A stretch of 64,000 bases of DNA from Brevibacillus composti (GTDB taxonomy: Bacteria; Bacillota; Bacilli; Brevibacillales; Brevibacillaceae), in NCBI RefSeq assembly GCF_016406105.1, contig NZ_CP066308.1, positions 1,957,501 to 2,021,500 on the forward strand, written 5' to 3'. The position numbers and the translations under genes were made by a program. Shown piece by piece: positions 30,171 through 39,121 of this stretch. The notes below the pieces were generated by a model. It did no database searches, had not been told where the DNA came from, and saw only the letters and a list, made by a program, of their open reading frames with translations. Position 1 is the first letter of the stretch; the number at the start of each line of letters is the position of its first letter.

Positions 30171-30326
30171 TTGACAATTCTTGTTCACAAATAATAAAAT
30201 AGATGTGTATTTACTAGCTGTTTCATACCTTTTCGCTGATTTGATCGCTCGTACCCTGTGAACAACTGAAGACCCGTATGGTACAGTACGGATTCAGCGG
30301 ACCGAGTAAAATCGGTCCTGTTTTTT
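30171..30326 (+). ncRNA. Promoter-terminator leader or small RNA upstream of rny
   Basis: A strong promoter (TTGACA 30171-30176, 18-bp spacer, TAAAAT 30195-30200) is followed about 90 nt later by an intrinsic terminator (GGACCGA 30299-30305, TCGGTCC 30312-30318, then TGTTTTTT). Between them CGCTGA (30234-30239) can pair with TCAGCG (30294-30299), enclosing a hairpin CCGTA/TACGG (30274-30278, 30287-30291). The long-range stem touches the terminator's first base. The RNA is ~120 nt and could be an sRNA or a cis-acting leader controlling rny. It matches no riboswitch class I can recall. Confidence 0.5.
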
Positions 30327-30427
30327 AGCTTTGGATAGAGCGACAAGCGCAGCAGTTACACCGTGAATAACGAAAGCTTGGAAAGCGGGGAGATGTCTTA
30401 CCACAAGGAGGTGAAACAAGAGAGCCT

Positions 30428-37232: not shown

Positions 37233-39121
37233 GTGCGCCCGGCATGGGCGGTAGCTATAGGGTGAAAGTCCTGAACGGGGGTTGGCTGTACCAACCGTTA
37301 GCTCAAGGCAAGGGTGTCCGCCGTGAGGCGGAATCTGAAGGAAGCCGGCGGCAAAGTCCCGACCTGAGGTACACAAACCCGATTCGAGGCTGCTGTACTC
37401 GGGTGAGCCTGCGCAACAAGGTAAAGCCCTATACAGCCAAGGGGTATAGCAGTATATCGGGCAGGTACATGGGATGAAAGTTACCGCTCTTACCCGGGGA
37501 GGTCTGCATGGAATGCCTACTGCTGTTGGCAACCGCCTCCGTGAGGAGGCGCTGAACATGCAGAAGTCAGCAGAGGCCATAGTACCCAATCGGGGACACC
37601 CGGTGGGGAAGGGCTGAACATCAAGTCAACACATGTTCCCAACTCCTTTCGATACGATGCAGCGAAGCAGAAATCCAGTTTGGAACTTCCTCTGGATAGC
37701 AGGGGTGAAGCCCCGAGGGTACAGAGAAGGGCTGAGCATTGTACGGCAAGACTGGTGACATGTGTGCGGAGAGAGGAGTATCGTTATGGATCTGCTGGAG
37801 AAGGTTCTGTCACGGGAGAACCTCACGGCTGCCCTCAAACGGGTCGAAGGCAACAAGGGCGCTCCGGGAATCGACGGTGTTACAACCGAACAACTGCGCG
37901 ACTACCTTCGCGAGCACTGGGCGACCATTCGGTCGCAGATCGAGGCGGGAACTTATAGACCATCTCCTGTCCGCAGGGTCGAAATCCCGAAACCTGACGG
38001 AGGAGTGCGGCTACTAGGTATCCCTACTGTGGTGGATCGCCTGATCCAGCAGGCTATCCTGCAAGTATTGACTCCCGTCTTTGACTCGGATTTCTCCAAC
38101 TCCAGTTTCGGTTTTCGCCCAGGACGTCGTGCCCACGACGCCGTGCGAAAGGCGAAGCAGTTCATTGAGGAAGGATACCGGTACGTGGTCGACATCGACT
38201 TGGAGAAGTTCTTTGATCGAGTGAACCACGACATCTTGATGAGTCGTGTAGCACGGAAGGTGAAGGACAAGCGTCTCCTGAAACTGATCCGTGCTTACCT
38301 GCAATCCGGGGTGATGGTCAACGGGGTGTGCGTCACAACGGAGGAGGGCACACCGCAAGGTGGCCCTTTAAGTCCGCTCTTGGCCAATATTCTACTGGAT
38401 GACTTGGATAAGGAGTTGGAAAAGAGGGGGCACCGTTTCTGCCGTTATGCGGACGATTGCAATATCTATGTACGCACGAAACGCGCGGGGCAACGGGTAA
38501 AGGAGAGTGTGGAGCGATACCTGACCAGGGTACTTAAACTCAAGGTAAATCAACAGAAAAGTGCGGTGGATCAGCCGTACAAGCGAAAGTTTCTTGGATT
38601 TAGTTTTGTTCCAGGAAAAGAGGCGCGAATACGGCTACATCCCAAATCGATTACCCGGTTGAAAGAACGGATTCGTCAACTGACTAACCCTCATTGGAGC
38701 ATTTCCATGCAGGAGAGAATCCGGAAACTCAACCAATACCTTATGGGATGGATTGGGTATTTTGCGTTGGCCGAGGCGAAAAAGCACCTGTTGCGAATAG
38801 AGGAATGGATTCGCCGAAGGCTCCGGCTCTGTCTGTGGACGCAATGGAAACGAGTTCGAACGCGATATCGCGAACTTCGTTCGCTAGGTCTCTCCCATAA
38901 TAAAGCACTGGAAATTGCAAACACCCGCAAGGGGGCATGGCGGACAACGAAAACTCCGCATATGCACAAAGCCCTTGGCGTCGCCTACTGGCAACAACAA
39001 GGGCTGTTGAGTTTGGTACAGCGATATTTCAAACTTCGTCAAGCTTGATGAACCGCCGTATACCGGACGGTACGTACGGTGGTGTGAGAGGACGGGGGTT
39101 AGTCACCCCCTCCTACTCGAT
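37233..39121 (+). mobile_element. Group IIC intron with internal reverse transcriptase
   Basis: A ~1.89-kb retroelement. The 5' end GTGCG (37233-37237) begins GTGCGCCCGGCATGGGCGG and is followed by TATAGGGTGAAAGTCC, characteristic of bacterial class C introns. Domains I-III occupy about 37233-37785, and domain IV holds the reverse transcriptase. Domain V is at about 39051-39084 (arms ACCGCCGTATACC and GGTACGTACGGTGGT). Domain VI (GGGGGT/ACCCCC stem) has a candidate branch-point A at 39115. The 3' end is placed at 39121 (...TACTCGAT), within 2 bases. Class C introns insert just after intrinsic terminators, exactly as seen here. All parts look intact, so it may be mobile. Confidence 0.93.
37786..39048 (+). 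CDS. ltrA: Group II intron-encoded reverse transcriptase/maturase
   Basis: A 420-residue reverse transcriptase and maturase that aids splicing and retrohoming of its host intron. RT blocks are visible: RRVEIPKPDGGVRLLGIP, FGFRPGRRAHDAV, VDIDLEKFFDRVNHD, GTPQGGPLSPLLANI and the catalytic YADD at 221-224. A thumb/maturase domain X follows (~290-400; RIRKLNQYLMGWIGYF). There is no HNH endonuclease domain, as expected for class C enzymes, which use nicked or single-stranded targets at terminators. ATG 37786 follows GAGAGGAG. Its stop lies 2 bases before domain V. Confidence 0.96.
   Translation: MDLLEKVLSRENLTAALKRVEGNKGAPGIDGVTTEQLRDYLREHWATIRSQIEAGTYRPSPVRRVEIPKPDGGVRLLGIPTVVDRLIQQAILQVLTPVFDSDFSNSSFGFRPGRRAHDAVRKAKQFIEEGYRYVVDIDLEKFFDRVNHDILMSRVARKVKDKRLLKLIRAYLQSGVMVNGVCVTTEEGTPQGGPLSPLLANILLDDLDKELEKRGHRFCRYADDCNIYVRTKRAGQRVKESVERYLTRVLKLKVNQQKSAVDQPYKRKFLGFSFVPGKEARIRLHPKSITRLKERIRQLTNPHWSISMQERIRKLNQYLMGWIGYFALAEAKKHLLRIEEWIRRRLRLCLWTQWKRVRTRYRELRSLGLSHNKALEIANTRKGAWRTTKTPHMHKALGVAYWQQQGLLSLVQRYFKLRQA

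Follow-up and report, generated by a model that had tools for sequence, protein, structure and literature searches.

In Brevibacillus composti, the 5' leader of rny, which encodes RNase Y, probably carries a transcription attenuator, and the parts of this putative attenuator recur throughout the Brevibacillus family. The decay of most B. subtilis mRNAs, and probably of those of many Firmicutes, begins with RNase Y. As far as the open-access literature searched goes, B. subtilis is the only species in which the control of the RNase Y level has been elucidated. A conserved rny attenuator would add a second, transcriptional route to setting that level. Within the window, by which we mean the whole 64,000-nt stretch of contig NZ_CP066308.1 that was analysed, a promoter and an intrinsic terminator are found between the end of recX (30148) and the start of rny (30428; Table 1). 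The terminator thus lies between the gene's own promoter and its start.

In the proposed mechanism, RNA polymerase would start at about 30207, produce a leader of ~120 nt containing the hairpin H2, and then meet a short intrinsic terminator (7-bp stem, U6). A fraction of the transcripts would end at about 30326 as a short RNA and the rest would continue into rny, such that the strength of the terminator, whether tuned or regulated, would fix the amount of RNase Y. The likeliest signal would be RNase Y activity itself, since the 5' end is AU-rich with G, as expected of an RNase Y-type site, and since cleavage of the B. subtilis rny leader by RNase Y falls mostly within its first 50 nt (PMC10303841). 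From the promoter, the terminator, their conservation and their association with rny, all of which can be read in the sequence, we infer transcription, partial termination and a response to a signal. The most cautious interpretation is a leaky terminator through which a set share of the transcripts passes, and feedback of RNase Y on rny is plausible. A plain leaky terminator that senses nothing would, however, leave the same traces.

Table 1. Features of the recX-rny interval and of rny, in window coordinates
Feature	Position	Strand	Basis
rny promoter, TTGACA (30171-30176), 18 bp, TAAAAT (30195-30200)	30171..30200	+	promoter-like site scan; near-invariant across the Brevibacillus family
Predicted transcript 5' end G30207, then near-invariant first block GUAUUUAC..UCAUAC	30207..30229	+	family alignment; start site is a prediction
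Hairpin H2, CUGAA..CCGUAU/GUACGG..UUCAG, directly 5' of the terminator	30266..30297	+	covariation
Intrinsic terminator, stem GGACCGA/UCGGUCC (30299-30305/30312-30318), U-tract 30321-30326	30299..30326	+	
Invariant terminator core, GACCGA 30300-30305 / UCGGUC 30312-30317	within 30299..30326	+	
Conserved linear motif GGAAAGCGGGGAGAUGUC, in the terminator-to-Shine-Dalgarno interval	30380..30397	+	family comparison
Shine-Dalgarno sequence of rny, AAGGAGGUG (also given as AAGGAGGTG)	30405..30413	+	sequence
rny, RNase Y, 517 aa	30428..31981	+	rny present in 39/39 genomes of the order

Promoter, leader and terminator in the Brevibacillus family

The strong promoter that an earlier note had read upstream of rny matches 11 of 12 consensus positions, ranks first among eight promoter-like sites within 5 kb and is kept across the family. 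The intrinsic terminator described there is equally well borne out. The sample of the order comprised 39 genomes, all of one family (f1); Brevibacillus thermoruber, B. laterosporus, B. parabrevis and B. fulvus are among the named carriers of the element. A -10 block and a terminator lie upstream of rny in all 39, of which 37 were found by the first promoter-terminator pattern and the other two differ from it in their -10 block. Between the last base of the -10 block and that of the terminator lie 123-129 nt (114-116 nt in the five leaders of genus g18), and the terminator precedes rny by 63 to 280 nt. At the DNA level, the 281-bp recX-rny region has a match in 26/26 genomes of the genus and in 0/16 class genomes outside it. 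The fold signal of the leader (30207-30328) is modest, with a z of -2.0 and 7 of 200 shuffles as good; the leader is nevertheless judged to be real because its conservation (26/26 in the genus, 39/39 in the family) is decisive.

An alignment of 37 distinct family leaders, from which the identical leaders L026 and L061 were omitted, supports a three-helix structure in which 98.4% of cells are paired, compared with only 15-39% in slid versions of the same structure. All of its both-side changes fall in H2, where three pairs are changed on both sides in nine cells versus 1.2 in shuffles (0/500 as high), in a control that ignores relatedness; the sequences within the family are related, and the counts are thus not independent events. 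The covariation that the earlier note proposed to seek in these upstream regions is seen in H2 and is missing from the terminator stem.

The long-range stem 30234-30239/30294-30299, suggested earlier as a competitor of the terminator, did not survive comparison. It is perfect in the window sequence, and its exact six pairs are kept in only 7/37 distinct family leaders (L001-L005, L008 and L066). The earlier note had named a lack of stem conservation among close relatives as a refutation, and this specific switch fails by that measure. It uses the UCAG of the lower part of H2 (30293-30297) and meets the terminator at a single base, 30299. Because UCAG is common to both helices, the long-range stem would open H2 and not the terminator, and it was rejected as a switch. 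Two further candidates were also set aside: an inverted repeat between TTGTTCACA (30182-30190) and TGTGAACAA (30258-30266 region), the second half of which, judged by eye, is not retained in relatives, and sequestration of the Shine-Dalgarno sequence, for which the consensus fold of the family contains no pairs. Downstream of the terminator, the linear motif GGAAAGCGGGGAGAUGUC has one exact copy in the genome; its core GAAAGYGGGGAGAT is present in 35/39 family members, at a variable distance from the terminator.

The terminator stem across the class

A covariance model of the leader (R1) has one copy in its own genome (150 of 1137 first-look candidates scored). Across 398 class genomes it finds 36/36 members of the Brevibacillus family and, at E <= 0.1, six others. 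Of these, five are placed immediately 5' of rny in other families and share the hairpin GACCGA..UCGGUC (GGCCGA in one) followed by a U-tract; the sixth (G150, L106) is not at rny and was discarded. A pattern for the exact stem occurs in 69/398 class genomes, with one copy in each and none for the reversed control. As many as 66 of the 69 copies are directly upstream of rny (f1 30, f8 3, f18 18, f30 10, f31 3, f39 2), and the remaining three (two in f15, one in f29) are elsewhere. In a named genome collection, 33/38 matches to the exact stem are found at rny, the genomes being Brevibacillus and of Thermoactinomycetaceae type; 31 of these 33 placements were read directly, and L191 and L198, with no rny match in the locus, were assigned through contigs of equal length, L218 and L021. 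The other five matches are four from Clostridia-type genomes and one from Paludibacteraceae. The terminators of f8, f18, f30, f31 and f39 are mostly separated from the Shine-Dalgarno sequence by only some 10-20 nt.

A strict terminator rule is satisfied by 8/59 rny leaders outside the Brevibacillus family, where 0.88 would be expected from shuffles. This rule misses f18 L132 and f6 L139, which have a similar hairpin with a shorter or shifted U-tract, and by the same rule the terminator is absent from most families of the class. In f6, L139 and L142 have a variant hairpin GACCG/CGGUC before the rny Shine-Dalgarno sequence, and one f8 genome (G099, L121) keeps the promoter and rny and has no such hairpin. 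The recurrence of the exact terminator letters at rny in related families suggests that the level of RNase Y is set by partial read-through; the many families that do without a terminator, the f8 genome that lacks the hairpin and L142, which has no U-tract, count against an attenuator.

The fixity of the stem was counted fairly over every genome sampled in the six families (f1 36, f8 5, f18 19, f30 10, f31 3, f39 2; 75 in total), of which 72 have the exact 12-nt stem GACCGA/UCGGUC. Six members of the Brevibacillus family had been missed by the pattern, five because GGTCC stands at the end of the stem (the core is exact) and one, L024, with a mismatch; among the others, f8 G085 has one G-U pair in the stem and f18 G171 has the exact stem with a different U-tract. 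In an alignment of 46 rows (44 distinct) from the six families, 0/6 stem pairs show a compensatory change, and 72/75 is the fair figure since most rows from outside the Brevibacillus family were chosen by the exact pattern. H2, by contrast, has three pairs changed on both sides within one family alone. Given this difference, the letters of the terminator stem, and not its pairing alone, appear to be held. The 75 hairpins have a mean energy of -9.7 kcal/mol (sd 0.9); that of the window, with one extra G-C pair, reaches -13.2 kcal/mol, and the 3' terminator of rny in the window -17.0. The loop is 5-10 nt long, and because of this variation an RNA hairpin fits better than a DNA-level dimer operator, which was rejected.

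One explanation of this fixity, which we advance tentatively, is that a trans-acting factor (RNase Y, partners in the Y-complex or another RNA-binding protein) reads GACCGA/UCGGUC in the nascent RNA, or in the mRNA beside the Shine-Dalgarno sequence, and thereby controls termination, decay or translation. Both the stem retained in nearly all sampled genomes and the lack of compensatory changes, set against those of H2, are consistent with such a reader, as is L142, where the core hairpin is retained without its U-tract. Six pairs are few, however, the letters could also be held constant by selection for a single termination strength, and pre-selection by the exact pattern applies to most of the alignment rows from other families. 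The narrower proposal that the hairpin is a sequence-fixed recognition element read in trans by RNase Y or its partners, through which RNase Y would control its own transcription elongation, is regarded as rather doubtful. If true, it would constitute a feedback unlike the mRNA-cleavage feedback of B. subtilis.

Possible antiterminators and the proposed sensing of RNase Y

An attenuator that responds to a signal could be expected to have an alternative fold, and an antiterminator formed by the 5' end of the RNA is plausible in most Brevibacillus and weak in the species of the window. An attenuator sensing RNase Y could be built on it: the 5' end UUUACUUGGU would pair with the 5' arm and loop of the terminator ACCGAGUAAA in most Brevibacillus, and excess RNase Y would cut the AU-rich 5' end, free the terminator and silence rny. 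RNase Y prefers AU-rich single strands, often cutting after G, according to PMC4608709 and PMC11780869, and its cutting at the 5' end could remove the antiterminator. Between 7 and 10 contiguous pairs of UUUACUUGGU with ACCGAGUAAA are possible in 23/37 family leaders (21/25 in the genus, 2/12 in others), with all 10 in 14 leaders, and in leaders with 7-10 pairs the terminator fold and the best terminator-less fold are 0.1 to 6.5 kcal/mol apart.

Despite this, we consider such an RNase Y-sensing switch unlikely. Pairing is limited to six pairs in the species of the window (UUUACU/AGUAAA) and in its two closest relatives, and to four in L008; in other genera, 10/12 leaders have six or fewer, mostly in another register. 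The partners hardly vary and hence provide no covariation, and the p of the duplex per sequence is 0.017 at best and > 0.05 in many. RNase Y is membrane-bound, making it doubtful that nascent RNA would be cut fast enough. For the window leader, the fold with the terminator is at -31.2 and the best fold without it at -21.9 kcal/mol, a gap of 9.3, and the lack of a strong antiterminator in the window's own species weighs against the attenuator reading. In prefix folding, the terminator arm was overall paired upstream no more than in shuffles, with a mean z of 0.45 in 17 of 37 family leaders (18 rows, one leader being entered twice) and of -0.7 in 7 of 20 f18 leaders.

Other candidates for a sensing element were rejected. 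An antiterminator from CUCG..CC around 30246-30255 makes only partial pairs by eye. A leader peptide encoded by the 18-codon frame from 30205 has a start codon that, in the window, precedes the predicted 5' end of the transcript, and an open reading frame of at least 15 codons at the 5' block is found in 13/37 leaders, with the frame not kept. A small upstream frame near the ribosome-binding site, from AUG 30393 in GGGGAGAUG, has no room for a Shine-Dalgarno sequence; its AUG is absent in L016 and L019, and by eye its frame is not kept.

The leader as part of rny, and rny leaders elsewhere

For the class comparison, each genus was represented by one or two regions upstream of rny, from 60 class genomes outside the Brevibacillus family. 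A promoter scoring at least 9 lies upstream of rny in 58/60, and the predicted start of the transcript tends towards TGYRTAT (T in 44/58, G in 43/58), also in terminator-less genomes. Because genera without the terminator have the same kind of promoter and first bases, these belong to rny, and the terminator lies inside the rny leader. The region is thus well supported, by comparative sequence evidence, as rny's own 5' leader and not a separate sRNA. The class-wide comparison further suggests that the promoter and first bases of rny are old and shared, and that the families differ in the controlling portion of the leader. By eye, the TGYRTAT start could fold into a 5'-terminal hairpin in several genera (L107-L166), with different pairing partners.

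The earlier note had left the choice between leader and sRNA open, and the association with rny favours the former. A separate sRNA gene placed by chance between recX and rny would account for the element's own promoter and terminator, for a near-invariant 5' block without a conserved stem, and for the variable distance (63 to 280 nt) to rny. It is quite improbable nonetheless: the element is always at rny, terminator-less rny leaders begin with the same type of bases, the terminators of other families adjoin the rny Shine-Dalgarno sequence, and no further + strand promoter-like site occurs from 30326 to rny. A trans-acting sRNA might be expected to occur apart from rny, and no second copy of the element was found in the genome among the candidates scored with R1. 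That the terminator merely halts transcription from a recA-recX operon, leaving rny otherwise unregulated, is very improbable even though recX stops just upstream and no other + strand terminator-like site occurs before rny, as a terminator serving the operon alone should precede the conserved rny promoter rather than follow it, and the fixity of its sequence would be left unexplained.

The rny leader corresponds to no known riboswitch class, as previously stated, insofar as Rfam 15 is concerned: the region has no match at gathering score, a search at E up to 10 yields a single match, at chance level (E 8.8) and not in the leader, and no family matches the loci of 15 relatives. Elsewhere in the window, Rfam matches to group II intron D1-D4 are found at 37317-37614 on the + strand. 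The open-access literature searched contains no report of an rny attenuator or of this element, by title or start of abstract, and no paper that treats RNase Y together with Brevibacillus; one candidate, PMC13236596, turned out to concern a different gene.

In Firmicutes attenuators and terminator-type riboswitches, a promoter and a structured leader are followed by an intrinsic terminator before the gene. The rny locus has the same arrangement, with a structured leader of ~120 nt; unlike these systems, it has no recognised ligand domain or leader peptide and no family-wide antiterminator, and its terminator stem is fixed in sequence. E. coli RNase E (rne) resembles RNase Y as a main mRNA-decay enzyme controlled via its own leader, and the autoregulation through the rne 5' UTR acts on mRNA stability and not via an intrinsic terminator. 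It requires a stem-loop in the leader, according to the discussion of PMC10303841. In B. subtilis, RNase Y cuts the 164-nt leader of its own mRNA as well as the first ~100 nt of the open reading frame, and the mRNA decays (PMC10303841). The Brevibacillus 5' block resembles an RNase Y site. The two rny genes have in common a sigma-A promoter and a long leader, and differ in that Brevibacillus has a terminator between promoter and gene; the main text of PMC10303841 has no words beginning with 'terminator' or 'attenuat'.

Several other families have distinct rny leaders, as noted by eye. Those of f18 (L215-L229, L127, L132, L104; Thermoactinomycetaceae-type) have a 5'-terminal hairpin of their own, GUAUCUUU/AAAGAUAC, together with strands GCUGG, CCAGC and CCUGG, the middle of which can pair with either neighbour; in L221 and L225 the letters are changed and still pair. 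None of the six f18 loci scanned has an Rfam match, and the f18 leader is possibly a second regulatory RNA. In f3, f15 and f33 (L128, L130, L134, L138, L145 and others), the rny Shine-Dalgarno sequence GCAAGAGGAGGUG could base-pair with CAUCUCC..UUUUGC within the first codons, in what appears to be the B. subtilis structure of PMC10303841. In f4 (L107, L108 and L112), another hairpin, CCAAGG..CCUUGG, stands just upstream of the rny Shine-Dalgarno sequence.
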